A stretch of 63,398 bases of DNA from contig NZ_CAJYBT010000020.1 of assembly GCF_913064665.1 (NCBI RefSeq), positions 1-63,398 of the forward strand, written 5' to 3'. This document shows, piece after piece, positions 27,792 to 42,915 of the stretch. Positions within the stretch are counted from its first letter, which is position 1. Each line of letters begins with the position of its first letter. The position numbers and the translations under genes were made by a program. This DNA is from an uncultured Thioclava sp. GTDB taxonomy: Bacteria > Pseudomonadota > Alphaproteobacteria > Rhodobacterales > Rhodobacteraceae. Below the pieces are notes generated by a model, which worked only from the letters and a program-made list of their open reading frames with translations, searched no databases and was not told the origin of the DNA.

Positions 27792-28502
27792 CTAGCTCCA
27801 GCGAACCTCGCCCAAAAAGATATAGCCTGCGCCGTAGATCGTCTTGATCAGTCGGGGATTTTTCGGATCTTCCCCAAGCTTGGTGCGCAGTCGTGAGATC
27901 CGCACATCCATCGCGCGATCAAAGCTGTCGCCTGCCGCACCGCCTAAGCTTTCCTGCATCTGCGCGCGGCTGATCAGGCGGTTCGGGCTTTCGAGAAATA
28001 GACGCAGAACCTCGCCCTCGGCATGGCTGAAGGAGGTCTCGTGTCCGGTCTCATCGACAAGCATATAGCGGTCGAAATGCGCCTTCCAGCCCGCGAAACT
28101 GGCGCTGTTGGCCGTGTTCGCCGCCCCCGAACGCCCCTTGCGCAGCCGGGCGCGAATGCGCGCGACGACCTCGGCGGGATCAAAGGGCTTGATGATGTAG
28201 TCATCCGCGCCCAGCTCAAGCCCCGTCACCCGGTCTTGCACTTGCGCGCGCCCCGAGATGATGATGATCGCCGCCCCGGATTCCAGCGCCAGACGATGCA
28301 CCAGCGCCAGCCCGTCGCGATCGGGCAAACCCAGATCGACAAGGCAGACATCGGGCGCGGTGCGGCGCAGCGCGGCCTCGAACTCGGTCGCGCGCCCGTA
28401 ACAGGTGGTGCGAAACCCCGCCTCTTGCAGCGCATCCGACAGCATCCGGCGAATTTCCGGCTCATCATCAAGAATCGCGACATGGGGTTGATCGGCGGTC
28501 AT
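27792..28502 (-). CDS. OmpR-family response regulator
   Basis: A 236-residue regulator. The receiver domain has ILDDEPEIRR, phospho-Asp D56 in LVDLGLPDRDG, and Lys105 in IIKPFDP. It is followed by a winged-helix DNA-binding domain (about 140-232: FSHAEGEVLRLF, VRISRLRTKL, TIYGAGYIF). Its start overlaps the stop of the hybrid kinase gene (ATGA), so the pair is one two-component system. The divergently transcribed acyl-CoA synthetase/Liv operon is the probable target; tandem 11-bp repeats in the shared upstream region fit OmpR-type binding. Confidence 0.93.
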   Translation of the reverse strand: MTADQPHVAILDDEPEIRRMLSDALQEAGFRTTCYGRATEFEAALRRTAPDVCLVDLGLPDRDGLALVHRLALESGAAIIIISGRAQVQDRVTGLELGADDYIIKPFDPAEVVARIRARLRKGRSGAANTANSASFAGWKAHFDRYMLVDETGHETSFSHAEGEVLRLFLESPNRLISRAQMQESLGGAAGDSFDRAMDVRISRLRTKLGEDPKNPRLIKTIYGAGYIFLGEVRWS

Positions 28503-30403
28503 GGTCTGGGTCCAGCAAGAAACGCGCCAAGATGTGCGGCGTCAAAGGGTTTCTGGATGACGGGGCAGGGGGCCGCCAAGCGCAGCGCATCCCCCGGAGG
28601 CAGCGACGTCATCAAGATCACTGGCACCTGATCGCCGATTGCGTGTGCAAGGTCCACCCCTGTGCGCGATCCGGCGAGTTGAATATCTGATAATACGAGA
28701 TTGATATCAGGCAGCGCCATCAGGGCCAGCGCCTCGGTCACGTTGCGCGCTTCGATGATAGTGTGGTCCATCGCGCGCAACATATCGCGGGTCGTGGTGC
28801 GAATATCTTCGTCATCCTCGACCAACAGCACCAGCATCGGCGTGGTGGACACCGCCGCAGGGCGCAAAGGCAGGCGCAGCGTCACTCGTGCGCCTTCGGG
28901 CATGTTGGTCAGCCGCACCGTGCCGCCTGCCAGCTTGGTTTGATCATAGACCATCGACAGGCCCAGGCCCGACCCCTCGCTACCCTTGGTGGTAAAAAAC
29001 GGATCGAGTGCATGGCTGAGCGCCGTCGGTGAAAACCCGGGCCCCTCATCGCTGACGGAAATTTCCACCCAAGTATCGCGCACCGGATGGGCCGCGATGC
29101 GGATGCATCCGCCCGTGTCGCGCATCGCGTCATTGGCGTTCAAGATCAGATTGAGAATGCTGTCTTGCAACGGGCCGGGGTCAAGCAAGACCGGGCTGTC
29201 CAGCCCATCTATCGCGATCTCAAGGCGGACCGCCTCGCGCAAGGTTGGCCCCGCCATCGCGGCCAGATCGTCAAACAGATCGGCGAGGACAACAGCTTGT
29301 GGACGCAATTCGCGCGGGCCGGAAATCGCGGCGAGGCGGTCCAGCAAAGTGCCGCCGCGCCGCGCCGCGCCCAAGGTCGCGCGGATCGCGTCTTGCGCGT
29401 CTTCCGGCAGGCCTTCCATGCGCTCCAGCCGACCTTGCAGCCCCAGAATGATCGTCAGCAGATTGGCGAAATCATGCGCGAGCCCTGACGACAGTTTGGC
29501 GGCCAATTCGCGCTTGGCGGTCTGGGCAAGGGCGGCACGCGCCTGCGCCTCATCGGTCACATCGGTGGACAGGATGAACACGCCCCCCACCGGGCCCGTA
29601 CCAATTCGGTCGGGCGTCAGCGCGATGCGGATGCGCCGCCCCGAAGGGTCATGCGTAATCTCGATCACGCTCGCCTCGCCATCCAAGGCGCGTTCAAACG
29701 CGGGGCGAATTTTGGCGAATGTCGCAACCCCCAGCGCATCGCTTGCCTCTTGTCCAACGACATCGGCATGGGATCCGGGCATCACCGAAGACAGTTTGCG
29801 ATTGGAAAACGTATAGACGAAATTGCGATCCATATGGGCGATATGGGCGGGCATCATCTCGGTTACTTGTCGGGTGCGCGCCTCGGTGATGGTGAGCTGG
29901 CGCTGGGTCTCTTGCAGCGCGGCATTGGTCGCGCCCAAGGCGCGGTTGGCGGCGCCCAACGCCTCGGCATGATCGAGCACCTGTTCGGACAGTTCCTCAG
30001 ATCGGGCACGCAGCAACGCCTCTTGGCGTTTGATCTCGGTGATGTCGGTATAGACGGTGATCCAGCCGCCTTGCGGCAGTGGTGCGCCCTCAACCGAAAT
30101 TGTGCGGCCATTGGCGCGGGTGCGCTCCATGTAATGCGGGGCGAAGGCGCGCGCGGTTTCCACGCGGTCGCGCACGGCAGCCTCGATATCGTCCACCGGG
30201 CCATATTCGCCCTGCTGCACCAGATAGCGCACGGTATCCTCAAACGAGGCCCCGGGCTGGGTCAGCGGATCGGGGAGGTTGAACATTTCCTTATACGGCG
30301 CGTTTGACACTGCCAGGCGTAGATCACTGTCAAAGATCGACAATGCCTGAGCGATCAGGTTCAGCCCCGCCTGTGTCAGCCTGTCATGTGCGCTTTCAGC
30401 CAC
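28499..30403 (-). CDS. Hybrid PAS sensor histidine kinase with C-terminal receiver
   Basis: A 634-residue cytoplasmic kinase without membrane segments. There are two PAS-type sensor domains (about 13-125 and 180-290) with a coiled coil between them. The phospho-acceptor H310 is in LAHDFANLLT; the ATPase domain at about 400-510 has LNANDAM, DEGPGFS and GSGLGLSM. A receiver domain lies at about 520-634 (LVEDDEDI, phospho-Asp in VLSDIQLAG, Lys in IQKPFDA). The GTG start has AAGGGGGG upstream. Lack of membrane anchors implies sensing of an internal signal, possibly a product of the neighbouring CoA ligases. Confidence 0.93.
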   Translation of the reverse strand: MAESAHDRLTQAGLNLIAQALSIFDSDLRLAVSNAPYKEMFNLPDPLTQPGASFEDTVRYLVQQGEYGPVDDIEAAVRDRVETARAFAPHYMERTRANGRTISVEGAPLPQGGWITVYTDITEIKRQEALLRARSEELSEQVLDHAEALGAANRALGATNAALQETQRQLTITEARTRQVTEMMPAHIAHMDRNFVYTFSNRKLSSVMPGSHADVVGQEASDALGVATFAKIRPAFERALDGEASVIEITHDPSGRRIRIALTPDRIGTGPVGGVFILSTDVTDEAQARAALAQTAKRELAAKLSSGLAHDFANLLTIILGLQGRLERMEGLPEDAQDAIRATLGAARRGGTLLDRLAAISGPRELRPQAVVLADLFDDLAAMAGPTLREAVRLEIAIDGLDSPVLLDPGPLQDSILNLILNANDAMRDTGGCIRIAAHPVRDTWVEISVSDEGPGFSPTALSHALDPFFTTKGSEGSGLGLSMVYDQTKLAGGTVRLTNMPEGARVTLRLPLRPAAVSTTPMLVLLVEDDEDIRTTTRDMLRAMDHTIIEARNVTEALALMALPDINLVLSDIQLAGSRTGVDLAHAIGDQVPVILMTSLPPGDALRLAAPCPVIQKPFDAAHLGAFLAGPRP

Positions 30404-30500
30404 CCGTTTCCCCCCTTGGCGTGATCATGGCTAACACCCCACCGGGCCCTGCGCAAATTACGTCTTTCGAAGTTGAGCCGCGCTGTAAGAATTCGTTACA

Positions 30501-30529
30501 ATCACGAAAACATCACGAAAACTTTGACA
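30501..30529 (+). promoter_or_regulatory. Tandem 11-bp repeats adjoining a -35-like hexamer
   Basis: ATCACGAAAAC occurs twice with no gap (30501-30511, 30512-30522), immediately followed by TTTGACA, whose TTGACA (30524-30529) is a consensus -35. One repeat per helical turn is the usual layout for OmpR-family dimers activating from beside the -35. No good -10 is seen 17 nt further on, as expected for an activator-dependent promoter. It lies in the gap between the two-component system and the synthetase/Liv operon. Confidence 0.6.
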
Positions 30530-30616
30530 GCGAGCCTAGCGCCATGCCGAACTGGGCGCGGAGGATTCGCCTTGGGCGGAGAGGGACGCCGGTCAACCGG
30601 CGCGAGGGAGGATAAT

Positions 30617-32593
30617 TTGGCTGAGGCAGTCACGAAGGGGCACGAGTCTGCCCAATCGATTCCTGCGCTGTTGGCGCGCAACGTAGCCCGTTTCGGGGGC
30701 TATCCTGCCTATCGCGAAAAGGAATTCGGGATTTGGCAAAGCTGGACATGGGCCGAGACCGCCGATGAAATCCGCGCTATGGCGCTTGGGTTTCTCAGTC
30801 TTGGGGTCGAGCGTGGCGATCATATCGCGATTATCGGGCGCAACCGCCCGGCGCATTACTGGGCGATCGTGGCGGCGCAGATGTGCGGTGCTATCCCGGT
30901 ATCACTGTATCAGGACGCGGCCGCCGATGAGATGGCCTATGTGATGGACCATTGCGGCGCGCGCTTTGTTGTGGCGGGCGATCAAGAGCAGGTCGACAAG
31001 ATCCTTGAGATCGGTGATCGCATCCAAGACATCACCCATGTCATGTATACCGACAAGCGCGGCATGCGGAAATATGACCACTCGCAGATGAACGCGCTTG
31101 AAGACGTCAAGGCCGAGGGGCGCGCGGGCCATGCGCGCTATGACGCAGAGCTGGATCGCCGCATCGCCGAGCTGACTTACGACACCACCTGCGTGATGCT
31201 TTATACCTCGGGCACGACCGGTAAGCCCAAGGGCGTGGTGCTTTCGAACCGCAATATCATCGAGACCGCCAAGGCGAGTTCCGACTTCGATCATCTGGAT
31301 CACAACGACGAGGTTCTCGCCTATCTGCCGTTGGCTTGGGTGGGCGATTTCATCTTTTCCATCGGGCAAGCGTATTGGACGGGCTTCACCGTGAACTGCC
31401 CGGAATCGCCCGAGACGATGATGACGGATCTGCGCGAAATCGGGCCGACCTATTTCTTCGCCCCGCCGCGGGTATTCGAAAATCAGCTGACCACCGTGAT
31501 GATCCGTATGGAAGATGCCGGGCGGGTCAAGAAATGGCTGTTTGATCACTACATGGAGGTCGCGCGCAAGATTGGCCCAGATATTCTTGATGGCAAGCCG
31601 GTCAGCTTTGGCAAGCGGCTGTCTTATGCGCTGGGCAATCTGTTTGTTTATGGCCCGCTCAAGAACACGCTGGGCTATTCGCGTATCCGCGTCGGCTATA
31701 CGGCGGGCGAGGCGATCGGCCCCGAGATCTTCAGCTTTTACCGCTCGCTCGGGATCAATCTGAAACAGCTTTACGGGCAGACCGAAGCGTCGGTGTTCAT
31801 CACGCAACAACCCGATGGCGAGGTGCGCGCCGATACCGTGGGCGTTCCAAGCCCCGGCGTCGAGGTGCGGATCGGCGAGAATGGCGAGGTCTATTATCGC
31901 AGCCCGGGCACTTTCGTGGCCTATTACAAGAATGCCGAAAGCACCGCCTCGACCAAAGATCCCGAGGGCTGGGTGGCGACGGGCGATGCTGGTTTCTTTG
32001 AGCCCGACACAGGCCATTTGCGCATCATCGACCGCGCCAAAGACGTTGGTAAAATGTCCGATGGTCGGATGTTCGCGCCGAAATATGTCGAGAATAAACT
32101 GAAATTCTATCCCGCGATTCTGGAATCCGTGGTGTTTGGGGCGGGCCGTGACCGCTGCACCGCTTTCATCAATATCGACCTTGCGGCAGTGGGCAACTGG
32201 GCCGAGCGCAACAACATTTCCTACGCCTCATATCAAGAGCTGGCCGGTCATCCGCGTGTCTATGAAATGATCCGCGAGCATATCGAAGAGGTGAACGAGA
32301 GCGTCGCGCAAGACCCGATCCTGTCGGGCTGTCAGGTGCATCGCTTCTTGATCTTGCACAAGGAACTGGACGCCGACGATGGCGAGTTGACCCGCACCCG
32401 CAAAGTGCGCCGCAACATTATCGCCGAGAAATTCGCCGACCTGATCGGCGCGCTCTATGACGGTAGCTCGGACATCTACACCGAAACCGAAGTGACCTAC
32501 GAAGACGGCCGTAAGGGCGCGATCAAGGCCACGTTGCGGATCGAGGATGCCAAGGTCATGCCGATCAAACCAATGGCGGAGGCCGCGGAATGA
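30617..32593 (+). CDS. AMP-dependent acyl-CoA synthetase (long-chain type)
   Basis: A 658-residue adenylate-forming ligase that activates a carboxylic acid to its CoA thioester. The phosphate loop is MLYTSGTTGKPKGV near residues 193-206. GQTEASVF lies near 380 and the hinge region around TGDAGFF and IDRAKD near 455-480. It resembles the long-chain fatty-acid CoA ligase branch; the substrate is not fixed. I start at a TTG preceded by GGGAGGATAAT because no ATG has a ribosome site and the upstream extension is unlike the family. Its stop overlaps the livG start. First gene of the uptake operon. Confidence 0.88.
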   Translation: MAEAVTKGHESAQSIPALLARNVARFGGYPAYREKEFGIWQSWTWAETADEIRAMALGFLSLGVERGDHIAIIGRNRPAHYWAIVAAQMCGAIPVSLYQDAAADEMAYVMDHCGARFVVAGDQEQVDKILEIGDRIQDITHVMYTDKRGMRKYDHSQMNALEDVKAEGRAGHARYDAELDRRIAELTYDTTCVMLYTSGTTGKPKGVVLSNRNIIETAKASSDFDHLDHNDEVLAYLPLAWVGDFIFSIGQAYWTGFTVNCPESPETMMTDLREIGPTYFFAPPRVFENQLTTVMIRMEDAGRVKKWLFDHYMEVARKIGPDILDGKPVSFGKRLSYALGNLFVYGPLKNTLGYSRIRVGYTAGEAIGPEIFSFYRSLGINLKQLYGQTEASVFITQQPDGEVRADTVGVPSPGVEVRIGENGEVYYRSPGTFVAYYKNAESTASTKDPEGWVATGDAGFFEPDTGHLRIIDRAKDVGKMSDGRMFAPKYVENKLKFYPAILESVVFGAGRDRCTAFINIDLAAVGNWAERNNISYASYQELAGHPRVYEMIREHIEEVNESVAQDPILSGCQVHRFLILHKELDADDGELTRTRKVRRNIIAEKFADLIGALYDGSSDIYTETEVTYEDGRKGAIKATLRIEDAKVMPIKPMAEAAE

Positions 32594-33411
32594 ACGATAT
32601 GAGCGACGGTTACATGACCGCGGATGGCCGCCAGATTGGTGGCGTTCTGATGGAGTTGAAGAACATCACGCTGAAATTCGGCGGCGTGACCGCGATCGAG
32701 AACATCTCGTTTGACATTCGCGAAGGCGAAATTCGCGCGATCATCGGGCCGAACGGCGCGGGAAAATCTTCGATGCTGAACGTGATCTCGGGGTTCTATG
32801 TGCCCACCGAGGGCGAGGTTTGGTTCAAGGGCTACAAGCGCGGGCCGATGAAGCCCTATGAAATCGCACGCCTTGGGATTGCTCGCACGTTCCAGAACAT
32901 CGCCTTGTTCGACGGGATGTCGGTGCTCGATAACATCATGACGGGCCGCTTGACCAAGATGAAGAAGGGCCTTCTGGCGCAAGCCGGTTGGTGGTGGACG
33001 GGCGCTGCCAAGGAAGAACATGAGAACCGCGAAAAGGTAGAGCGGATTATCGACTTTCTGGAGATCCAGAATATTCGCAAAACGCCCGTCGGTCGCCTGC
33101 CTTACGGGCTGAAAAAACGGGTCGAACTGGCGCGCGCCTTGGCCGCCGAGCCGAAAATCTTGCTGCTCGATGAGCCGATGGCGGGAATGAACGTCGAAGA
33201 GAAAGAGGACATGTGCCGCTTTATCCTCGATCTCAACGATGAATTCGGCACCACCATCGTCTTGATCGAGCACGATATGGGCGTGGTCATGGATATTTCG
33301 GACCGCGTCGTCGTGATGGATTACGGCAAAAAGATTGGCGATGGCGCGCCGACTGAGGTGCGCAACAATCAGGCCGTGATCGACGCCTATCTGGGGGTGG
33401 CCCATGACTGA
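32590..33411 (+). CDS. Branched-chain-type ABC importer, ATP-binding protein (LivG family)
   Basis: A 273-residue ATPase. Walker A IIGPNGAGKSS near residue 51, the LivG-type insertion GIARTFQN near 92, signature LPYGLKKRVELARAL near 170, Walker B ILLLDEPMAGMN and the H-loop IEHDM. It also has a 20-residue N-terminal extension. Starts on the synthetase stop (ATGA). It would pair with the LivF-like ATPase at 37294 and the two permeases to power uptake. Confidence 0.93.
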   Translation: MNDMSDGYMTADGRQIGGVLMELKNITLKFGGVTAIENISFDIREGEIRAIIGPNGAGKSSMLNVISGFYVPTEGEVWFKGYKRGPMKPYEIARLGIARTFQNIALFDGMSVLDNIMTGRLTKMKKGLLAQAGWWWTGAAKEEHENREKVERIIDFLEIQNIRKTPVGRLPYGLKKRVELARALAAEPKILLLDEPMAGMNVEEKEDMCRFILDLNDEFGTTIVLIEHDMGVVMDISDRVVVMDYGKKIGDGAPTEVRNNQAVIDAYLGVAHD

Positions 33412-33452
33412 TTTCTCACAAACGCAACGCGGTCAAACCGGGGAGGCGCATC

Positions 33453-34439
33453 ATGCCTGATCAACTCGTCTATGCGATGGAAGTGACGCTGAACGGGCTG
33501 ATGGCGGGGGTGTTGTACTCGCTGGTTGCGCTTGGCTTTGTGCTAATTTTCAAGGCCTCGGGCATCTTCAATTACGCCCAAGGGGTGTTGGCGCTGTTTG
33601 CCGCGCTCACGCTGGTGGGCATCCAGAACGGCCAAGTTCCGTTCGCCCATATGATCAACGCAATGACGGGCGGGCATCTGACCAATTTCGGCTGGCAAGT
33701 GCCATCGGTGATTGCGATTTTGTTGACGGGCGTCGTGATGGTTCTGCTGGCGATCGTGATCGAGAAGCTGGTGCTCAAGCACCTCGTCAACCAAGCGCCG
33801 ATCATCTTGTTCATGGCGACCATCGGCATGGCTTATTTCCTCGAAGGCTTCGGCGATGTGATGTGGGGGGCTGATATCAAAACGCTTGATGTCGGCCTGC
33901 CCCAAGGCATCAACGAAACCATTGAGAGCCTGACCGACCGCTGGTTCGGCTATGGGTTCTTCATCGACAATCTCGATATCGTGGCGACGTTGCTCGCGAT
34001 CTTGTTGGTCACCGCGCTGACGCTGTTTTCGCAATATTCCAAGCAGGGCCGCGCCTTGCGCGCGGTGGCCGATGACCATCAGGCCGCGCTGTCAGTGGGC
34101 ATCTCGTTGCGCTTTATCTGGGTGCTGGTCTGGTCGATTGCGGGCTTTGTCGCGCTGGTTGCGGGCATCATCTGGGGCACGAAGTCGGGTGTTCAGTTCT
34201 CCCTCAGCCTGATCGCGCTCAAGGCGTTGCCGGTGTTGATGCTGGGCGGGTTTACCTCGATCCCCGGTGCGATTGTCGGCGGGTTGATCATTGGCGTTGG
34301 CGAAAAGCTGTTCGAATTCTCGATAGGTCCGATGATCGGTGGCGCCACCGAGAACTGGTTTGCCTATGTGCTGGCGCTCGTCTTCCTCGTCTTCCGTCCG
34401 CAAGGGCTGTTTGGCGAAAAGATCATCGAGAGGGTCTGA
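33453..34439 (+). CDS. Branched-chain-type ABC importer, permease (LivH family)
   Basis: A 328-residue inner-membrane permease with about eight to nine hydrophobic segments. The sequence LNGLMAGVLYSLVALGFVLI at residues 10-29 and the cytoplasmic coupling segment GRALRAVADDHQAALSVGI near 193-211 are LivH hallmarks. It is longer than E. coli LivH, with a periplasmic insertion around 60-75. The start lies 41 nt after livG. Confidence 0.92.
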   Translation: MPDQLVYAMEVTLNGLMAGVLYSLVALGFVLIFKASGIFNYAQGVLALFAALTLVGIQNGQVPFAHMINAMTGGHLTNFGWQVPSVIAILLTGVVMVLLAIVIEKLVLKHLVNQAPIILFMATIGMAYFLEGFGDVMWGADIKTLDVGLPQGINETIESLTDRWFGYGFFIDNLDIVATLLAILLVTALTLFSQYSKQGRALRAVADDHQAALSVGISLRFIWVLVWSIAGFVALVAGIIWGTKSGVQFSLSLIALKALPVLMLGGFTSIPGAIVGGLIIGVGEKLFEFSIGPMIGGATENWFAYVLALVFLVFRPQGLFGEKIIERV

Positions 34440-34572
34440 ACAATGTCACGGAGCTGTGAGAATTTTCTTGATCGGGATGCGGGGCTGCGACAAGCTGCCG
34501 CATATCGTAGCGTCAAGGCAGGGGAGGCCCGTCGTTGCGAGAGCGTAACGAGCAAAGGGAGGACCGTTGCCC

Positions 34573-34752
34573 ATGAAAATCTGTGCGACCGTATTCACCA
34601 TCGGTTGGGGGGCCGCGCTTGCCTTCGGCTGGATCGCATTGGCGGCCCCGCCAGAAGAGGCGTCACAATTGCAAACCATCAATATCGCACTGGCCGCCTT
34701 GGGCGCCGGGGCCGGGCTTTGGGCTTGGCTCAGGATACGACGCGGCTGCTGA
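34573..34752 (+). CDS. Small two-helix membrane protein inside the Liv-type operon
   Basis: A 59-residue frame (MKICATVFTIGWGAALAFGW onward) with two hydrophobic stretches, about residues 6-24 and 34-50, joined by a short acidic loop, and a basic end (LRIRRGC). GGGAGG lies upstream, at good spacing for a TTG at 34567 and slightly long for the ATG at 34573. It lies between the two permease genes on the same strand, leaving 354 nt that would otherwise be unusually empty. I recognise no family. It could be an accessory subunit of the transporter. Whether it is translated is unproven. Confidence 0.6.
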   Translation: MKICATVFTIGWGAALAFGWIALAAPPEEASQLQTINIALAALGAGAGLWAWLRIRRGC

Positions 34753-34792
34753 CGGAAGAGATCGCTCTCTTCCCAAATAAGGGGAGAGGCTA

Positions 34793-35869
34793 ATGTTTTA
34801 CCGCGAAGCTGGTGATTTCAAGACGTCGTATAGTGAAGACGGGCAGACCTTTCCGATCAAATTCGATCGGTTGCGGTTTTACGCCGTGCTGGCCGTGGCC
34901 TTCGGGGTGATCCCGCTTTTCATCAATGATTACTGGGCCAACGCAGTGGCGGTGCCGTTTCTGATCTACGCAATTGCGGCGATCGGGCTGAACATTCTGG
35001 TGGGATATGCCGGTCAGGTGAGCCTTGGCACGGGCGGCTTCATGGCCGTCGGGGCCTATGCTGTTTACAAGCTGATGACTGCGTTCCCCGAAGTGTCGAT
35101 CTTCATTCACGTCATTTTGGCGGGCCTCATCACGGCCGCCGTTGGTGTGGTGTTTGGCCTGCCCAGCCTGCGCATCAAGGGGTTCTATCTGGCCGTCGCT
35201 ACGCTGGCGGCGCAGTTCTTCCTAGTCTGGCTGTTCAACAAGGTGCCGTGGTTTTACAACTACTCGGCTTCCGGCCAGATCAACGCGCCCGAGCGCACGG
35301 TGTTTGGCGTGTTTGTGACGGGCGCGCAGACCTCGGCGATGGCGAAATACATGTTCTGCCTCGTGATTCTGACACTGGTGGCATTGGTCGCGCGCAACCT
35401 GACGCGCGGCACCGTCGGGCGCAAATGGATGGCGATCCGTGACATGGATATCGCCGCAGAAATCATCGGGGTGAACCCGTTGACCACCAAACTTACCGCT
35501 TTCGCCGTGTCCTCGTTCTTCATCGGTATCGCAGGGGCGCTGTTCTTTGCAGTCTATCTGGGCGCGGCAGAGGTGGGCGAGTCCTTCGGTATCCAGAAAT
35601 CGTTCCTGATCTTGTTCATGGTGATCATTGGCGGGCTTGGCTCGATCTTCGGGTCTTTCGCGGGGGCTGCGTTCCTCGTGCTGCTGCCGGTGTTCCTCAA
35701 GAACGTGCTGGTGGGAACGCTGGGTTGGCCGACCGATCTGGCCGCGCATATCGAGTTGATGATCGTGGGCGGGCTGATCGTGGTGTTCCTGATCGCCGAA
35801 CCCCATGGCATCGCGCAGCTTTGGCGCGTCGCGAAAGAGAAACTCCGGCTTTGGCCCTTCCCGCACTGA
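34793..35869 (+). CDS. Branched-chain-type ABC importer, permease (LivM family)
   Basis: A 358-residue permease. The LivM signature GLNILVGYAGQVSLGTGGFMA lies at about residues 64-84; RIKGFYLAVATLAAQF near 123 and the coupling loop GRKWMAIRDMDIAAEIIGV near 208 follow. An aromatic-rich stretch near 150-170 (VPWFYNYSASG) is characteristic of transporters with this gene order rather than amino-acid LivM. GGGGAGAGGCTA precedes the start. It completes the membrane part of the importer. Confidence 0.93.
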   Translation: MFYREAGDFKTSYSEDGQTFPIKFDRLRFYAVLAVAFGVIPLFINDYWANAVAVPFLIYAIAAIGLNILVGYAGQVSLGTGGFMAVGAYAVYKLMTAFPEVSIFIHVILAGLITAAVGVVFGLPSLRIKGFYLAVATLAAQFFLVWLFNKVPWFYNYSASGQINAPERTVFGVFVTGAQTSAMAKYMFCLVILTLVALVARNLTRGTVGRKWMAIRDMDIAAEIIGVNPLTTKLTAFAVSSFFIGIAGALFFAVYLGAAEVGESFGIQKSFLILFMVIIGGLGSIFGSFAGAAFLVLLPVFLKNVLVGTLGWPTDLAAHIELMIVGGLIVVFLIAEPHGIAQLWRVAKEKLRLWPFPH

Positions 35870-35948
35870 CGCGAAGGCGCTGCCCAACATCGAAGAACCG
35901 GGATCAACCCGGCAAGGTATTCGACTGACTCTCTGGGAGGAGATGCAT

Positions 35949-37235
35949 ATGAGAAAGACACTAACCGCCTTGGTGGCCGCCGCGATGACGCTAGGCGCTG
36001 CCCCGGTCATGGCCGAACTGGTCGTGCCGAACCTGAGCTACCGCACCGGGCCCTATGCCGCGAACGGCATTCCCTACGCGGACGGCTTTAACGACTATTT
36101 CACGCTGCTGAATGAACGCGATGGCGGGATTGGCGGCGAGATGATCAAAAGTCCCGAATGCGAGACCGCCTATAACACCGAGAAAGGCGTGGAGTGCTAC
36201 GAGGCCACCAAGGGCGAAGGTGCGCTGGCCTATAACCCGCTCTCAACCGGCATCACCTATCAGCTGATCCCGAAAATGGCCGAAGATGGCATCACGCTGT
36301 ATACGCCCGGCTATGGGCGCACCTCGGCGGCCAATGGCAAAGTGTTCAAATGGGTGTTCAACTACCCGGCGAACTACTGGGATGGCGCTTCGGTCGCGGT
36401 CAAATACCTGATGGATCAGAACGGTGGATCGCTTGAGGGCAAGAAGATCGCGCTGGTCTATCACAACTCTGCATACGGCAAAGAGCCGATCCGCACGCTC
36501 GAAGAACTGTCCAAGAAACACGGTTTCACGCTGTCTACCTTGCCGGTCGATCACCCGGGCCAAGAGCAGAAATCGCAATGGCTGCAAATTCGTCGCGAAA
36601 AGCCTGACTATGTCATCATGTATGGCTGGGGCGTGATGAACCAGGTCGCCATTCAAGAGGCCGTCAACATCCGCTTCCCGATGGAGAACTTTATCGGCAT
36701 CTGGTGGTCCGGCTCTGAAAATGACGTTCAAGCCGCTGGGGACAAGGCGACTGGCTACAAGGCGCTTTCGTTCCACGGTACTGGCATGGATTACCCGGTT
36801 TACGCGGACATGAAAAAATATGTCGTGGATACGGGCAAAGCCAGCGGTGCGGGCGATCAGGTCGGCACGATGCTGTATTCGCGTGGCATGTATGCGGCGA
36901 TCATCATCTCTGAGGCGATCCGCAAGGCGCAGGAACTGGCGGGCAAATCGGCGGTGAACGCAGCCGAGGTGCGCGACGGTTTCGAAAACCTCGATCTGAC
37001 CGAGGCACGCTTGGTCGAACTTGGCCTGCCCGACTTTTCGCAGCCGATCAAGGCAAGCTGTGAGAACCACGGTGGTCCGGGGGCTGCGCGCGTCTTCCAG
37101 TGGGATGCGGCGAGCAAGAAATGGAACGCAGCTTCGGATTGGATCACGTCTGACAAGGACGTGCTGGATCCGCTGATCGCGGAAGACTCGGCTGCTTTTG
37201 CCAAGGAATCCGGCATTGAGGAACGCTGCAAATAA
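35949..37235 (+). CDS. ABC importer periplasmic substrate-binding protein (LivK-like, peripla_BP_6)
   Basis: A 428-residue exported binding protein. Signal peptide MRKTLTALVAAAMTLGAAPVMA is followed by a two-lobed type I binding fold, beginning VVPNLSYRTGPYAANGIPYA. Two cysteine pairs may form disulfides (near residues 58/69 and 362/428). The chosen ATG is six bases after GGGAGGAG; frames further upstream overlap livM. It is longer and Trp/Tyr-richer than LivK for amino acids, so a larger or aromatic ligand is plausible but not shown. A stem-loop after the stop may protect its mRNA. Confidence 0.93.
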   Translation: MRKTLTALVAAAMTLGAAPVMAELVVPNLSYRTGPYAANGIPYADGFNDYFTLLNERDGGIGGEMIKSPECETAYNTEKGVECYEATKGEGALAYNPLSTGITYQLIPKMAEDGITLYTPGYGRTSAANGKVFKWVFNYPANYWDGASVAVKYLMDQNGGSLEGKKIALVYHNSAYGKEPIRTLEELSKKHGFTLSTLPVDHPGQEQKSQWLQIRREKPDYVIMYGWGVMNQVAIQEAVNIRFPMENFIGIWWSGSENDVQAAGDKATGYKALSFHGTGMDYPVYADMKKYVVDTGKASGAGDQVGTMLYSRGMYAAIIISEAIRKAQELAGKSAVNAAEVRDGFENLDLTEARLVELGLPDFSQPIKASCENHGGPGAARVFQWDAASKKWNAASDWITSDKDVLDPLIAEDSAAFAKESGIEERCK

Positions 37236-37241
37236 CAGACT

Positions 37242-37267
37242 GGCTCCCGGCCTGCGGGTCGGGAGCC
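37242..37267 (+). other. Intercistronic stem-loop after the binding-protein gene
   Basis: An 8-bp GC stem (GGCTCCCG / CGGGAGCC) with a ten-base loop and no T-tract, 7 nt after the binding-protein stop and 27 nt before livF. Stems of this kind commonly stabilise the upstream mRNA so that binding protein is made in excess of the other subunits. Confidence 0.6.
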
Positions 37268-37293
37268 ACCTCTAACCCCTCGGAGTTTTTCCC

Positions 37294-38118
37294 ATGCTCG
37301 ATGACGTCAAAACCGATGCGGCCCTGCTTGAGGTCAACAATATCGAAGTGATCTACAATCACGTCATCCTTGTTTTGAAAGGCGTCAGCCTCAGCGTGCC
37401 CAAAGGCGGGATCACTGCGCTTCTGGGTGGCAACGGCGCGGGCAAGACGACGACGCTCAAGGCGATCTCGAACCTGCTGAGATCCGAACGCGGCGAGGTC
37501 ACCAAGGGCAGTATCATCTACCGTGGCGAGCGGGTTGAAGATGGCGCCCCGGCGGATCTGGTGCGCAAAGGCGTGATCCAGGTGATGGAGGGTCGGCATT
37601 GTTTCGAACACCTCACCGTTGAAGAGAACCTGCTGACCGGGGCCTATACCCGCAAGGATGGCCGCGCCGCCGTGCAGGCAGATCTTGAGATGGTCTATAA
37701 TTATTTTCCCCGCCTGAAAGAGCGCCGCAAATCGCAAGCGGGCTACACTTCGGGCGGCGAGCAACAGATGGTCGCAATGGGCCGCGCGCTGATGAGCCGC
37801 CCCGAGATGATCTTGCTGGACGAGCCCTCGATGGGGCTGGCGCCGCAATTGGTTGAGCAGATTTTTGAGATCGTGAAATCGGTCAATGAGAATGAAGGCG
37901 TGACCTTTCTGTTGGCCGAACAAAACACCAATGTCGCGCTACGATACGCGCATTACGGCTATATTCTGGAAAGCGGGCGCATCGTGATGGACGGCCCGGC
38001 CGCCGATCTGCGTGAAAATCCGGACGTGAAAGAGTTCTACTTGGGCGTTGGCGATGACGGGCGCAAATCGTTCCGCGATGTGCGTAGCTATCGTCGCCGC
38101 AAACGCTGGCTGGCGTGA
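37294..38118 (+). CDS. Branched-chain-type ABC importer, ATP-binding protein (LivF family)
   Basis: A 274-residue ATPase. Walker A LLGGNGAGKTT near residue 45, the LivF motif VIQVMEGRHCFEHLTVEENL near 94, signature YTSGGEQQMVAMGRAL near 150, and Walker B MILLDEPSMGLAP. Beyond the usual end it has an Arg-rich tail (FRDVRSYRRRKRWLA), an extension not found on amino-acid LivF proteins. It is the second ATPase of the importer. The CoA ligase follows after 87 nt. Confidence 0.93.
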   Translation: MLDDVKTDAALLEVNNIEVIYNHVILVLKGVSLSVPKGGITALLGGNGAGKTTTLKAISNLLRSERGEVTKGSIIYRGERVEDGAPADLVRKGVIQVMEGRHCFEHLTVEENLLTGAYTRKDGRAAVQADLEMVYNYFPRLKERRKSQAGYTSGGEQQMVAMGRALMSRPEMILLDEPSMGLAPQLVEQIFEIVKSVNENEGVTFLLAEQNTNVALRYAHYGYILESGRIVMDGPAADLRENPDVKEFYLGVGDDGRKSFRDVRSYRRRKRWLA

Positions 38119-38205
38119 CTTTAAGTCTTTGAAATTGAACAATTGCTGCGCAGAATTTCTGAGCGGCAGGGGGCAGTTTGCCCATAACAGGAAAAGGGTC
38201 GAGAG

Positions 38206-39426
38206 ATGGGTAAGCATTTCGACGAATTGGAAACCCGATCGGCTGATGCGCGTGAAGCCGCTTTGGCTGCCGCTCTTCCGGGCGTGATCGCCAAGGCGCT
38301 GCAAGCCCCGGGGATGGCCGCGCATTTGGCGGGCGTGGATGCCTCGCAAGTCACATCGCGTGCGGCGCTGGCGTGTCTTCCCGTGCTGCGCAAATCCGAT
38401 TTGGGCGCGGCCCAGAAAGGGGCGCCCCCCTTGGGCGGGCTAATCACCAAACCACTGACCGCTTTCGCCCATATCTTTCAATCTCCCGGCCCAATCTATG
38501 AACCCGGCGATGTCAGCCATGACTGGTGGCGGCTGGGGCGCTTTGCCCATGCCGCGGGGGTGGGCCCCGGTGACATTGTGCAAAACTGCTTTGGCTATCA
38601 CCTGACGCCCGCGGGCATGATGTTTGAAAATGCCGTGCGGGCGGTGGGTGCCGCTGTGCTACCTGCGGGCACGGGTCAGACCGAGCTGCAAGTGCGTGCC
38701 GCCGCCGATATTGGCACGACCGTCTATGCGGGCACGCCCGATTACCTGCGTATCATCCTCGAGAAGGCCGACGAGATGGGCGAGCGGTTGGCGCTGACCA
38801 AAGCCACCGTTTCGGGGGGCGCGCTCTTTCCCAGCTTGCGCCAGCTTTATGCCGATCGCGGCATCGCCTGTCTGCAATGCTATGCCACTGCCGATCTGGG
38901 CAATATCGCCTATGAAAGTGCCGCGATGGAAGGGATGATCGTCGATGAAGGCGTGATCGTCGAAATCGTGCGTCCCGGCACGGGTGACCCGGTCGCCCCC
39001 GGCGAAGTGGGTGAGGTCGTGGTGACAACGTTGAACCCCGATTATCCGCTGATCCGTTTTGCGACGGGCGATCTTTCGGCTGTGATGGAGGGCGCCTCCC
39101 CCTGTGGACGTAGCAATATGCGCATCAAGGGGTGGATGGGGCGCGCCGATCAAACGACCAAGATCAAGGGCATGTTCGTGCGCCCCGAACAGGTTGCTGC
39201 CTTTGTCGCGGCCCATCCGCAGGTGCAAAAGGCCCGCGTCATCGCCAGTCGTTCGGGCGAGATGGATGTGATGACCGTGCAGGTCGAAACCGAGAGCAGC
39301 GATGCAGCTCAATTCGACGCTGGCATTCGCGCTGCACTCAAGATGAAAGGGGTGATCGAACTGGTTGCTCCGGGCACTTTGCCCAATGACGGCAAGGTCA
39401 TTGACGACCAACGCAGCTATGATTGA
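38206..39426 (+). CDS. Phenylacetate-CoA ligase-like (PaaK family) adenylate-forming enzyme
   Basis: A 406-residue ligase of the PaaK/CapK branch: CYATADLGNIAYES near residue 225 in place of the PaaK YGLSE region, then LIRFATGDLSAV near 283 and the C-terminal IKGWMGRADQTTKIKGMFV (305-323). Family members form CoA thioesters, mostly of aryl acids. The usual PaaK phosphate loop (SSGTTG) is not obvious; the equivalent stretch reads IFQSPGP, so its adenylation chemistry may differ or be lost. It closes the Liv-type operon. A separate ligase for a second substrate, or a regulator of CoA intermediates, are alternatives. Confidence 0.85.
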   Translation: MGKHFDELETRSADAREAALAAALPGVIAKALQAPGMAAHLAGVDASQVTSRAALACLPVLRKSDLGAAQKGAPPLGGLITKPLTAFAHIFQSPGPIYEPGDVSHDWWRLGRFAHAAGVGPGDIVQNCFGYHLTPAGMMFENAVRAVGAAVLPAGTGQTELQVRAAADIGTTVYAGTPDYLRIILEKADEMGERLALTKATVSGGALFPSLRQLYADRGIACLQCYATADLGNIAYESAAMEGMIVDEGVIVEIVRPGTGDPVAPGEVGEVVVTTLNPDYPLIRFATGDLSAVMEGASPCGRSNMRIKGWMGRADQTTKIKGMFVRPEQVAAFVAAHPQVQKARVIASRSGEMDVMTVQVETESSDAAQFDAGIRAALKMKGVIELVAPGTLPNDGKVIDDQRSYD

Positions 39427-39479: not shown

Positions 39480-41138
39480 ATGCGTAAACTATTGTTGACG
39501 GGGGCCGCGATTGCGGCGCTTGCCGTGCCTGCGAATGCGGCCGATTTGGCGCTGATCTTGGGCAATGCGAATTACGACCGAATGGGCGATGTCAAAGCGG
39601 GGGATGCCTCGATTGCCGCCCAGTCGGGTTTGAAACAGGCCGGGTTCGCGGTTTTCGATCAGGACAATGCCGATGCGGGCGAGATCCGCGCGCGCTTTCG
39701 CGATTTTGTCGCGGAGTCGCAGGGGGCGGACACGGTTGTCGTCGCGCTGTCTGGGCGCTTTGTCCACAGCAATTCCGAGACGTGGTTTTTGCCCGTGGAT
39801 GCGCGCGATGCCACTTTGCCAGAAGCGGTCAGCGAGGCTTTGCCGCTGTCCGCCGTGATGACCGTTTTGGCGGCCCATCCGGGGAAAGCGGTGTTGCTGT
39901 TGGGCGCGTCGGACCCCGAGGGGGGCATGTCCGGGCTGACGATGCCGGGCATTGGCATGCTCGACATTCCTCAGGGCGTGAGCGTCCTGCGTGGAGAGCC
40001 CAAACAAGTGGCTGCCGTTATGGGCGGCGCGCTGGTGCAACCCGGCATGCCCCTTGCTCAGGCGGCGCGCGAAGCGGGGCTGACGGCCTCGGGGTTTGTG
40101 ATGCCGGAACGTGCGTTAGTCAATGTGCAAAGCCAGCCGAACACCCCTGCACCTGCGCCGGTCAAAACGCCCGCCGCCGATCCAGCCTCACCTTATTGGG
40201 ATCTCGCGAGCTCCGAAGACACGATTGACGCCTATCAGCTCTATCTCAAGCGCTATCCCAATGGCGCAAACGCGGCGGATGCCAAGGCGCGCATCGCGAC
40301 GCTCAAGGCGGAACCCGAGTTGCAGGCCAAGGCGGTCGAAAAGGCGCTCAACCTGTCGCGCGATCAACGCCGCGAGGTGCAGCAGAATCTGACCATCCTT
40401 CAGTTTGACCCGAAGGGCGTTGACGGGATTTTCGGCCCCGGTTCGCGCAGCGCGATTTCGCGTTGGCAGCAGGCAAACGGGTTTGATGGCACATCCTATC
40501 TAAGCTCCGAGCAGCTGACCAAACTGTCTGCACAGGGCGAAAAGCGCTCTGCCGAACTGGATGCCGAAGCCAAGGCGCGTCAGGCAGAGATTGACACGCA
40601 GGATCGCGCCTATTGGGAGCAAACGGGCAAGGCCGGGGATGAGCCGGGCCTGCGCGCTTATCTCAAGAAATATCCCGATGGGCTGTTTGCGGATTTGGCG
40701 CAAGAGCGGCTTGATACGATCGAGGCCGCTCGTCGGGCGGATGCGCAATCGGCGGATCGTGGGGATTGGGATGCTGCGCGCAAGGCCGACACGGTCGCGG
40801 CCTATCGCGAGTATCTCTCAAGTCGCGACAAACCTGCCTTCCAAGCCGAGGCCGAGGCCCGCATCTCTGAACTGCAGCAGGAAAACCAGGACAGCGCACA
40901 GGTGGCCCAAGCCAAGGCAACCGAAGATGCCTTGGGTTTGCCCAGTGTAGCGCGGCAGTTGGTGGAACAACGGCTATCGCAGATGGGGTTGAAGCCGGGC
41001 AAGGTGGACGGCGCCTTTACCCCCGAAACCCGCCGCGCGATCCGGCGCTATCAAACAGCCGGCGGGCTGCCTGCGACGGGCTATCTGACACAGGCAACCG
41101 TGGCACAGCTTTTGGCCGGTGCCATCGGGTTTCGCTAA
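39480..41138 (+). CDS. Secreted caspase-fold protein with two peptidoglycan-binding domains, catalytic residues absent
   Basis: A 552-residue exported protein (signal MRKLLLTGAAIAALAVPANA). Residues 22-215 align with peptidase C14 (LALILGNANYDRM, then WFLPVDARD). The catalytic SGHG is here SGRF (91-94) and DACR is GASD (142-145), so both His and Cys appear lost. Two repeat-like blocks starting YWDLASSEDTIDAYQLYLKR and YWEQTGKAGDEPGLRAYLKK follow. Each is linked to a peptidoglycan_binding_1 domain (about 285-355 and 485-550; VDGIFGPGSRSAI and VDGAFTPETRRAI). It probably anchors in the cell wall as a scaffold. The start at 39480 follows ACGGAGGATAGC. A terminator follows. Confidence 0.85.
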   Translation: MRKLLLTGAAIAALAVPANAADLALILGNANYDRMGDVKAGDASIAAQSGLKQAGFAVFDQDNADAGEIRARFRDFVAESQGADTVVVALSGRFVHSNSETWFLPVDARDATLPEAVSEALPLSAVMTVLAAHPGKAVLLLGASDPEGGMSGLTMPGIGMLDIPQGVSVLRGEPKQVAAVMGGALVQPGMPLAQAAREAGLTASGFVMPERALVNVQSQPNTPAPAPVKTPAADPASPYWDLASSEDTIDAYQLYLKRYPNGANAADAKARIATLKAEPELQAKAVEKALNLSRDQRREVQQNLTILQFDPKGVDGIFGPGSRSAISRWQQANGFDGTSYLSSEQLTKLSAQGEKRSAELDAEAKARQAEIDTQDRAYWEQTGKAGDEPGLRAYLKKYPDGLFADLAQERLDTIEAARRADAQSADRGDWDAARKADTVAAYREYLSSRDKPAFQAEAEARISELQQENQDSAQVAQAKATEDALGLPSVARQLVEQRLSQMGLKPGKVDGAFTPETRRAIRRYQTAGGLPATGYLTQATVAQLLAGAIGFR

Positions 41139-41260: not shown

Positions 41261-41902
41261 ATGCATGATTCTAACCCCTCGTCCGCCAAGCCCCGCCCCC
41301 GTGGTCGCCCGCCCCTTGCGCCTGATGCGCAGGCGTCGCGCAAAGCGTTGCTGCGCGCGGGGCTCGCGCAGCTGACAGAGAGGGGCTATGTCGCGGTGCG
41401 TCTGGACGATGTCGTCTTGAGTGCGGGTGTGACCAAGGGCGCGTTCTATCATCATTTCCGCTCAAAGGCGGACTATGGCACGGCGCTGATCGCGGAATAT
41501 GACGCGTATTTTCAGGCCCAGATCGCGCGCAGTTTGGGGCGTGCCGACCTAACGCCACTGGCGCGTTTGCAGGACTTCGCCACGATGGCCGAGGCCGGGA
41601 TGGCCCGGTTCGGATTTCGGCGCGGCTGCCTGATCGGCAATCTTGGTCAAGAGATGGCCTCGCTGCCCGAAGACTATCGCGCCAAGCTGATCGCGGTGCT
41701 TGAGGGCTGGCAAGACATGACCGCAACCTGTCTGCGCGCCGCTCAAGACGCAGGTGAGATCGCATCAGATCAAGACCCAGAGACCCTTGCCGCGCTGTTC
41801 TGGACCGGCTGGGAAGGCGCGGTCCTGCGCGCCAAACTCGAACGCAACCCCGCGCCGCTGCGGCAGTTTACTGCCGGATTCCTGCGCCTCGTATCGAAAT
41901 GA
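41261..41902 (+). CDS. acuR: TetR-family repressor AcuR
   Basis: A 213-residue TetR-type regulator. The N-terminal helix-turn-helix is [20 protein letters not shown], then [12 protein letters not shown], near residues 42-73; the C-terminal ligand domain includes [20 protein letters not shown]. In Rhodobacter sphaeroides AcuR represses its own operon and is released by acrylate from DMSP cleavage. Order (acuR-acuI-dddL) and operator here match. No Shine-Dalgarno precedes the ATG, consistent with leaderless translation. Its stop (ATGA) overlaps a possible upstream start of acuI. Confidence 0.94.
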
Positions 41903-41913
41903 CGGAGTTCCCC

Positions 41914-42906
41914 ATGACCAAAGCCATCGTGATTGAAAAGACTGACGAGACCCAAAGCGTTTCGTTGCGCGACATTGATCTGCCGCCGTTGGCCGAGGGC
42001 GAAGTGGCCGTCGACGTCGCCTATTCCACGCTGAATTACAAAGATGCGCTGGCATTGACCGGGGCCGCGCCGGTTGTGCGCAGCTTCCCGATGGTGCCGG
42101 GGATTGATTTGGCCGGGATCGTGCGCGAAAGCCTGCATCCCGATTATGCGCCCGGCGACCGCGTTGTTCTCAACGGTTGGAGTGTGGGTGAGAAATACTG
42201 GGGCGGGCTGGGTGCGCGCGCGCATCTGCGCGGCGAGTGGCTGGTGCCGCTGCCCGAGGGAATCTCGATGCGTCAGGCGATGGCGATCGGCACGGCGGGC
42301 TATACCGCGATGCTGTGCGTGATGGCACTTGAGGCCAATGGCGTGACGCCCGAGAGCGGCGAAGTGGTTGTGACCGGGGCCTCGGGCGGTGTCGGCAGCG
42401 TGGCCATCGCGCTGCTCGCGGCCAAGGGCTACACCGTGGCTGCGGTCACCGGGCGCGAAAGCGAGGCGGAGTATCTGAAATCGCTTGGGGCGTCGTCAAT
42501 CGTGGCGCGCGAGGAGTTGTCGGGTAAGCCGCGCGCCCTCAACAAAGAGCGTTGGGCAGGCGCGATTGATGTGGTGGGCAGCACGGTTCTCGCCAACCTG
42601 ATCTCGATGATGAAATATCACGGCACGGTCGCGGCGTGCGGTCTGGCAGGCGGGATGGATCTGCCCAGCTCGGTTGCGCCTTTCATTCTGCGCGGTGTCA
42701 CCCTTGCCGGGGTCGATAGCGTGATGTGCCCGCGCCCCCGGCGGATCAAGGCGTGGCAACGCTTGGCGCGTGATCTTGACATGGCAAAGCTGGAATCGAT
42801 GGTGGTCGAGGTCGCTCTGAAGGATGTGATCGCCACGGCCCCGAAATTCCTCGAAGGGCAGGTGCGCGGCCGGATCGTCGTACCCGTCGCCCCCGAGCTT
42901 GGCTAA
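41914..42906 (+). CDS. acuI: Acrylyl-CoA reductase (NADPH) AcuI
   Basis: Reduces acryloyl-CoA to propionyl-CoA, detoxifying and assimilating the C3 product of DMSP. A 330-residue zinc-free medium-chain reductase: ALNYKDALA-type N-terminal motif (here [13 protein letters not shown]), VPGIDLAG near 60 and the NADPH loop [13 protein letters not shown] near 151. GGAG seven bases upstream favours the ATG at 41914; an ATG at 41899 overlaps the acuR stop. YhdH-like annotation would refer to the same family. Confidence 0.94.
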
Positions 42907-42915
42907 GAGGGGGCG

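Follow-up and report, generated by a model that had tools for sequence, protein, structure and literature searches.

What does an importer of the Liv class carry when its operon also encodes an acyl-CoA synthetase and a relative of the ligase PaaK, and is uptake joined to activation? The question is raised by the window analysed here, a stretch of 63,398 nucleotides from an uncultured Thioclava sp. (contig C20 of a 3.72-Mb genome), in which positions 27792-39426 hold a divergent regulator pair and one operon. The operon runs in the order acyl-CoA synthetase (ACS), livG, livH, small membrane protein, livM, periplasmic substrate-binding protein (SBP), livF and PaaK-like gene, and the genes of a PAS hybrid kinase and an OmpR regulator diverge from it; this layout, with its strands and families, is as described in the original prediction, a reading of the sequence alone, and was recovered from open reading frames (ORFs), Pfam and NCBIfam. 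The system combines a Liv-class importer and a synthetase in one conserved unit, and two points about it are new, a LivF tail that tracks the ACS and a PaaK relative lacking the P-loop. The best explanation, to which we give a rough probability of 0.45, would be Liv-class import coupled to CoA activation by a tail-held ACS, with the PaaK-like protein as accessory, the PAS/OmpR pair as switch and an isovalerate-like cargo. The original prediction had found something real and misread part of it. The features of the locus are the following.

27792-28502, minus strand: OmpR-type response regulator with receiver and winged helix (Pfam PF00072, PF00486 (Trans_reg_C)); its orthologue adjoins the kinase in relatives
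28499-30403, minus strand: soluble PAS hybrid histidine kinase with C-terminal receiver (Pfam PAS_7, PAS_4, HATPase_c, Response_reg)
30617-32593, plus strand: ACS, AMP-forming, long-chain type (Pfam AMP-binding, 230.8 bits; canonical P-loop and A10 Lys)
32590-33411, plus strand: LivG-type ATPase (Pfam ABC_tran; best NCBIfam match LivG, 247.9 bits, cut-off 362)
33453-34439, plus strand: LivH-type permease (Pfam BPD_transp_2)
34573-34752, plus strand: 59-aa membrane protein with two hydrophobic stretches (hydrophobic ORFs lie in the same gap of relatives)
34793-35869, plus strand: LivM-type permease with aromatic loop (Pfam BPD_transp_2; loop conservation)
35949-37235, plus strand: SBP, 428 aa, start corrected (Pfam Peripla_BP_6; model pLDDT 93.7; closest solved chain 4RU0)
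37294-38118, plus strand: LivF-type ATPase with C-terminal basic tail (Pfam ABC_tran)
38047-38115, plus strand: LivF tail past the YLG that closes the ATPase domain (VGDDGRKSFRDVRSYRRRKRWLA), proposed docking motif (co-occurrence counts)
38206-39426, plus strand: PaaK-like protein without P-loop, proposed non-adenylating partner (alignment; model pLDDT 92.8)
38476-38508, plus strand: degenerate P-loop FQSPGPIYEPG, opposite SSGTTGKPT of PaaK (alignment of 128 homologues)

The first new point lies at the C-terminus of LivF, which reads ...FYLGVGDDGRKSFRDVRSYRRRKRWLA in the window protein, whereas E. coli LivF ends in ...AYLGG. The basic tail noticed in the original prediction is real; its sequence is RKSFRDVRSYRRRKRW, strongly basic and with a Trp near the end. 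Co-occurrence was computed for 158 LivF proteins of the fetched loci, and the tail was present in all 151 with an ACS and/or a PaaK-like gene within 9.5 kb and in none of the seven with neither; a stricter tail rule missed L218, whose tail reads VKHYRRRKRWLA. Both genes accompany 138 of the 151 tail-bearing proteins, the ACS only four and the PaaK-like gene only nine. Seven of these nine are loci of the named-genome scan with at most 7.5 kb upstream of LivF, among them L151, where the locus opens with the end of an ACS; the remaining two are L212, which is cut inside LivF, and L215 on a Methylibium plasmid. Judged by sequence identity, which falls to 51% (L218) and 54% (17 others at or below 62%) among tail-bearing proteins and spans 53-63% among tail-less ones, overall similarity does not account for the tail.

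Paralogous Liv systems show the same pairing of tail and adjacent ACS. Among 47 LivF matches in three genomes, three beyond the known systems reach query residue 272-273 (L310-L312), and all three are tailed and have an ACS, placed directly after LivF in L311 and L312 and after the neighbouring LivG in L310. Seventeen of the other 40 paralogues were fetched, with neither a tail (0/17) nor an AMP-binding gene directly beside the transporter (0/17), though six of them have such a gene 4-8 kb from LivF. A prospective test in six further genomes (50 matches) found tail and ACS together in 3/3 proteins reaching residue 272-273 and in 0/3 ending near 253. The ACS is directly beside LivF in five of the six extra tail-bearing paralogues and beside LivG in one (L310). 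A second tail type (GARGERRWKKKKTWR-like), made of other letters and still basic and Trp-bearing, accounts for four of the six. The short LivF loci of the three-genome search were readable in 17 of 30 cases, with a tail in five, four of which have an AMP-binding or PaaK-like match within 1.5 kb, and neither feature in 12. Since no PaaK-like match occurs within the fetched stretch (18.5 or 10.5 kb) of any of the six extra tailed cases, the ACS is the likelier partner of the tail, which we read as a candidate docking site for it.

Several observations count against docking. The Methylibium locus L215 has the tail and a PaaK-like gene, with no ACS match in the locus. In the tail-less L315 and L322, two of the six paralogues with an AMP-binding gene 4-8 kb from LivF, that gene shares the strand and lies about 2.4-2.9 kb 5' of the nearest permease match; if it is in the operon, which is possible, both are exceptions to the tail rule. 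Moreover, six of the seven tail-less LivF form one clade in the SBP tree, so that these cases are not independent. The tail could instead bind membrane lipids, or serve as an autoregulatory element of LivF, its association with the ACS being mere operon history; basic Trp-bearing tails are typical of membrane-interface peptides, a description that the window tail fits, and the single tail-less clade together with the possible exceptions L315 and L322 would suit this alternative. It is a serious contender, if an unlikely one, given that the tail follows the ACS into paralogous systems and is absent from L098 and L101, which have only an AMP-binding gene fragment of 282-301 aa without a P-loop.

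The six tail-less, ACS-less loci (L093, L095-L098 and L101, with transporter and SBP and no PaaK-like gene) are a clade with support 99/93, a sister branch that offers a contrast: a transporter without full ACS, PaaK-like protein or tail. The truncated AMP-binding proteins of L098 (12692-13540, minus strand) and L101 (6943-7848, minus strand), 282 and 301 aa long, represent the N-terminal part and are encoded directly upstream of livG. In L093 (3946-5670) SfnG and MsuE genes lie near the transporter and in L098 (15437-16633) an SfnB gene does, all scoring above the NCBIfam cut-offs, and the branch probably serves sulfur scavenging as an organosulfur importer. An organosulfur cargo was not transferred to the window system, the clade (6 rows, 99/93) being separate.

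How far the unit is kept was computed from several sets of loci. The first 60 (L062-L121) comprise 40 of the 42 places matched by the SBP in other genomes, together with 20 found with the PaaK-like gene in a scan of the class, and 12 further PaaK-like loci were fetched (L203-L214). The seven core genes stand on one strand in 45/60 and 9/12 of these, respectively, and a scan of named genomes gave at least 581 confirmed relatives, of which 80 were retained, 72 with the whole block and eight incomplete. The search for conservation that the original prediction had proposed thus found the seven-gene core widespread (45/60 and 72/80 loci). The closest relative of the PaaK-like gene among the matches listed in the named-genome scan is that of Thioclava atlantica, 88% identical. 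At E <= 1e-60 the PaaK-like gene was recovered from 68/240 genomes sampled within the class and from 42/299 within the phylum, and the SBP from 40/299; the two phylum searches used two draws of 299 genomes, taken as identical, and comparison of their lists gave both genes in 34 genomes, the SBP alone in six and the PaaK-like gene alone in eight. All eight of the latter have livG, ACS, livH, livM, a divergent SBP and livF beside the PaaK-like gene, which in L111 is on the other strand.

Incomplete blocks make up 15 of the 60 loci. Besides L111 and the six of the sister clade, the PaaK-like gene is not nearby in L079-L082, yet is found elsewhere in those four genomes; L090 stops at a contig end; L099 has only the SBP, L100 a transporter without ACS and L120 only the PaaK-like gene. 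A second gene order, livG-ACS-livH-livM-distant SBP-livF-PaaK-like, was met in L203-L211 (9/12), in L113, L114 and L119 and on the three opened Azospirillum plasmids, while in L213 and L214 the PaaK-like gene is the only one of the block and L212 has in addition a LivF cut by the stretch end. In the distant-SBP block (L113, L114, L119, L203-L211, L219) the receptor differs and ACS, tail and PaaK-like protein are constant; the closest solved chain of the L114 binding protein is 3EAF. At least two arrangements thus preserve ACS, importer and PaaK-like protein as a unit, and chance assembly is excluded because the block is conserved in other families and classes.

Two findings support a coupling of uptake to activation: the ACS gene remains linked to the importer genes in two or more gene orders, one of which has a different SBP, and the LivF tail is found together with the ACS. 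Of the vectorial scheme in the original prediction this part stands; two working ligases and an aromatic cargo are not supported. In the proposed mechanism the Liv-class ABC importer would import a carboxylic acid rather than an amino acid and hand it to the ACS, which the basic, Trp-bearing LivF tail would hold at the cytoplasmic face of the transporter, so that the acid would be trapped as CoA ester upon entry, uptake being coupled to thioesterification.

The importer has the complete make-up of the Liv/HAAT class, with two LivF/LivG-type ATPases, two BPD_transp_2 permeases and one Peripla_BP_6 protein in Pfam. Its subunits were said to differ from amino-acid Liv proteins. Both ATPases and both permeases miss their NCBIfam cut-offs (LivG 247.9/362, LivH 88.8/379, LivM 129.3/366 and LivF 209.2/441 bits), and the ligand residues of LivJ are changed in the SBP, where the alignment has Trp in 42/51 and an acidic residue in 0/51 at Glu226, Gly in 51/51 at Thr102 and Thr in 44/51 at Ser79; we take Glu226 to be the amine-binding residue of LivJ, and the other two presumably also contact the ligand. 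As this Glu is missing, an amino acid cargo appears unlikely and a non-amino-acid carboxylate most likely. Short- to medium-chain branched acids of the isovalerate kind would come first as the cargo class, though at below even odds, and long-chain fatty acids next.

The cargo evidence from neighbouring genes comes in part from plasmids of Rhizobiaceae. Three of four such loci, those of Peteryoungia, Allorhizobium and Rhizobium sp. SSA_523, have isovalerate/leucine (Liu) genes immediately after the operon, as well as the kinase/regulator pair seen in the window; in the fourth, Ciceribacter, no Liu genes are within reach. The genes 3' of the PaaK-like gene, on the same strand, encode a thiolase, acyl-CoA dehydrogenase, isovaleryl-CoA dehydrogenase, both methylcrotonyl-CoA carboxylase-type subunits, HMG-CoA lyase and enoyl-CoA hydratase, names that come from annotation in Peteryoungia and from similarity in the other two. 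A like set follows an aldehyde dehydrogenase gene on two of three Azospirillum plasmids, and isovaleryl- and isobutyryl-type dehydrogenase genes are next in L113 and L108. Furthermore, genes for a B12-dependent acyl-CoA mutase and MeaB lie just upstream on the plasmids of Roseovarius THAF8 and Xanthobacter Py2 (0/40 control stretches); the Xanthobacter gene, Xaut_5043, we take to be a pivalyl-CoA mutase.

Against a branched-acid cargo weigh the following points. Leucine or valine genes occur within the stretch in 3/72 loci and 1/80 named loci, as compared with 3/40 control stretches, which is no enrichment, and directly downstream in 2/58 usable loci (expected 0.24), 0/77 named loci and 3/12 plasmid loci, the three being one family. 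The Liu/valine link, at first sight decisive in Peteryoungia and Azospirillum, was given up as general evidence of cargo and retained as a lead, since it failed as enrichment and its direct fusion, above expectation, is mainly that of one family; most operons stand alone. The ACS is of the long-chain type by family. As for the SBP model (pLDDT 93.7), the best match is 4RU0 (TM 0.88-0.91, 41% identity), which is nearly identical to the L098 SBP (939 bits) and so falls in the tail-less sister clade; the next fold matches are 4N03 ('Fatty acid ABC transporter substrate-binding protein') and then 3LKB ('with bound valine'), and in alignment the latter has His opposite the LivJ Glu position, so that the missing Glu makes an amino acid cargo unlikely rather than impossible.

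An importer of long-chain fatty acids, in which the SBP would bind fatty acids and the long-chain-type ACS activate them, a task that FadL/FadD perform by another route, is for these reasons a rival, though an unlikely one. The best NCBIfam match of the ACS is FadD11, a fatty acid-CoA ligase, at 276.5 bits against a cut-off of 950, and 4N03 stands second by fold and third by profile among the SBP matches at only 16% identity, its ligand known here by title. Thiolase and acyl-CoA dehydrogenase genes do follow the operon on some plasmids, in gene sets that include isovalerate or valine genes.

The second new point concerns the PaaK-like protein, and with it the claim that two working CoA ligases flank the importer. 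The motifs of the ACS are intact: T-S-G-T-T is present in 123/124 homologues (one gap) and the A10 Lys in 124/124, and P-loop, YGxTE and TGD are all found. The PaaK-like protein was aligned with those of 127 loci, 128 sequences in all, and the loss of the P-loop was computed from this alignment: S-P-G replaces the S-S-G of PaaK in 128/128, Thr-Thr-Gly-Lys follows in none, and the loop reads approximately SPGPIYEP. In the same alignment the PaaK homologue of the window's own genome on contig C14 (L003) keeps SSGTTGKPT, and the five solved relatives that could be read have a canonical or near-canonical loop. At the A10 position, which we take to be that of the catalytic lysine, Lys is found in 81/128, the window protein included, Leu, Ile, Val or Arg in 46 and a gap in one; Gln replaces the second Asp of GRxDD, and the A5 Tyr, TGD and GR are invariant (128/128). 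The protein gives only AMP-binding matches below the gathering cut-off in Pfam and 99.7 bits against the NCBIfam PaaK cut-off of 646.3. It has both PaaK homology and the PaaK fold, the Foldseek neighbours of its AlphaFold model (pLDDT 92.8) being BT_0428, PaaK1/2 and 2-hydroxyisobutyryl-CoA ligase.

From these residues we infer that the protein can hold AMP or an adenylate and is unlikely to form one from ATP: it keeps the residues expected to hold AMP or acyl-adenylate, without the loop for the ATP triphosphate. Because the P-loop is lost in 128/128, it is probably not a second ATP-dependent ligase, and the two-ligase reading was set aside after this count. Most likely it would bind AMP, acyl-AMP or acyl-CoA as a regulator of, or accessory to, the ACS rather than act as a second activator. 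It is improbable that the unusual P-loop nonetheless supports ligase activity, with two acids being activated or a single acid in two steps: overall fold, invariant motifs, the A10 Lys of the window protein and a strict conservation that argues for function would all agree with activity, and they stand against the S-P-G in every sequence, the missing Thr-Thr-Gly-Lys, the A10 Lys replaced in 46/128 and the loops kept by the solved relatives.

An aryl substrate, which the original prediction had proposed next to a fatty acid, fares worse still. An aryl-acid importer with the PaaK-like protein as aryl-CoA ligase would draw on the PaaK homology, on the R. palustris aromatic-acid SBPs among the fold matches and on single aromatic-type neighbours, namely a gene for a PaaI-type thioesterase (Xanthobacter), a Rieske/PDR pair about 7 kb off (Methylibium) and a carboxymuconolactone-decarboxylase-family gene (Azospirillum ramasamyi). 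Across the nine annotated plasmid loci there is no recurring set of genes for aromatic degradation, the P-loop is lost, and the P-loop-bearing PaaK homologue of the genome lies elsewhere; aromatic cargo was rejected on these grounds and is very unlikely. In L215 (20294-22856), from the plasmid of Methylibium petroleiphilum PM1, about 7 kb separate the block from the Rieske/PDR oxygenase pair, presumably mdpJK of tert-butyl alcohol oxidation. In the window's genome, a second Liv-type transporter (L317, C14:34700-53200) has nearby a PaaK homologue whose P-loop is canonical, as well as genes of PaaI-like and crotonase-like type, and its LivF has no tail; it is a probable phenylacetate locus and a contrast to the window operon.

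An ordinary branched-chain amino-acid importer with the ligases as unrelated passengers, which the LivFGHM family names and the relative 3LKB, titled with bound valine, might suggest, is the least probable alternative, its odds slight in view of the scores under the NCBIfam Liv cut-offs, the changed LivJ ligand residues and an ACS that stays in two gene orders.

As for regulation, the domain make-up and divergent placement of the PAS hybrid kinase and OmpR regulator fit a pair that controls the operon, and from this position we infer that the pair most likely switches it in Rhodobacterales and some Rhizobiaceae. The H-box of the kinase, identified by eye, is GLAHDFANLLTIILG, and no transmembrane stretch was seen when one was looked for by eye. 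Within the window's own family (L062-L075) 12 of 14 loci have the kinase, as do L076 and L104 outside it and 4/4 Rhizobiaceae plasmid loci; in L064 and L071 none was found in the upstream 2.4 and 4.8 kb. A Crp/Fnr-type gene stands next to the operon in 9/60 loci (three checked by Pfam) and on one named plasmid. Sensor control, which the earlier reading had placed in the description of the system, is thus a lineage feature and not a general trait.

Some smaller features of the operon required revision or confirmation. A small membrane protein does lie between livH and livM; the ORF 34443-34793 first taken for it is Arg-rich, and the true one is the overlapping 59-aa ORF. The livH-livM gap exceeds 150 bp in 59 of 130 relatives with both genes and holds a hydrophobic ORF (48-161 aa) in 48 of the 59; such ORFs occur in many Rhodobacterales loci, and many start MxKLIAIxNVxAWxGFWAFGYLALT. 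Contrary to the original prediction, the SBP is not unusually long, because relatives span 416-449 aa (56 loci): the 476-aa frame overlaps livM, and the start lies near 35949, which gives 428 aa. Among the 42 SBP matches in other genomes, 24 start no earlier than query residue 41, and in-frame stops are present in eight. The aromatic-rich loop of LivM proved real and partly family-wide, with two Trp conserved in 56 and 57 of 59 sequences and an Asn in 55, positions at which E. coli LivM differs. The ACS frame is open from 30473, and the TTG at 30617, with GGAGG upstream, is proposed as its start.

Beyond the operon, the gene directly after the PaaK-like one (39480-41138, plus strand) encodes a caspase-fold (Peptidase_C14) protein with peptidoglycan-binding repeats, relatives of which lie downstream in 7/14 own-family loci (L062-L075). 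Positions 41261-43632 (plus strand), 1.8 kb past the PaaK-like gene, hold acuR (41261-41902; 250.4 bits, cut-off 247), acuI (41899-42906; 519 bits, cut-off 440) and a DMSP lyase gene (PF16867). No adjacent copy of acuR or acuI was found in the layouts of relatives, which contain matches above 60 and 80 bits only, and this acrylate/DMSP operon was treated as a mere neighbour rather than part of the system.

Compared with known systems, the window importer shares the five-part architecture and Pfam families of E. coli LivFGHMJK and is distinct from it in the replaced T102 and E226, the 23-aa LivF tail and the linkage to ACS and PaaK-like genes. The protein 4RU0 ('ABC transporter permease from Pseudomonas fluorescens group', a periplasmic binding protein) is like the window SBP, whereas the L098-type operon to which it points lacks ACS, PaaK-like gene and tail and has the truncated AMP-binding fragment and SfnB nearby. 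The PaaK ligases (2Y27, 2Y4O; BT_0428, 4R1L) are fold and sequence relatives of the PaaK-like protein, which departs from them in the absent P-loop, the A10 Lys often replaced and the Gln in GRxDD. The R. palustris-type aromatic-acid importers (4JB0, which is Rp1789, and 4EVQ), which presumably include CouP, are also Liv-class importers of organic acids, with SBP identities of 12-18%. In FadL/FadD vectorial acylation, too, an entering acid is trapped as its CoA ester, and no ABC importer takes part; in the window system, by comparison, the synthetase would be tied to an ABC ATPase.

In the parts of the literature consulted, which include portions of PMC12632250, PMC9974510 and PMC10481361, no description of this operon was found, no search having been aimed at the LivF tail. 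The permeases of the operon are named branched-chain amino-acid permeases in 5/6 plasmid records, and if the coupling is true, a short LivF peptide would mark those 'Liv' operons that import acids for CoA activation. The P-loop-less, strictly conserved PaaK relative may be a new pseudo-ligase or new chemistry on the PaaK fold. More broadly, and as a tentative proposal, there may be a class of ABC importers in which a docking tail on LivF recruits an ACS and makes import and CoA activation one coupled vectorial reaction, the widest-spread branch adding a non-adenylating PaaK relative as regulatory or acyl-transfer subunit. Physical coupling, if shown, would be a new mechanism, and ABC importers would gain a vectorial acylation of their own.

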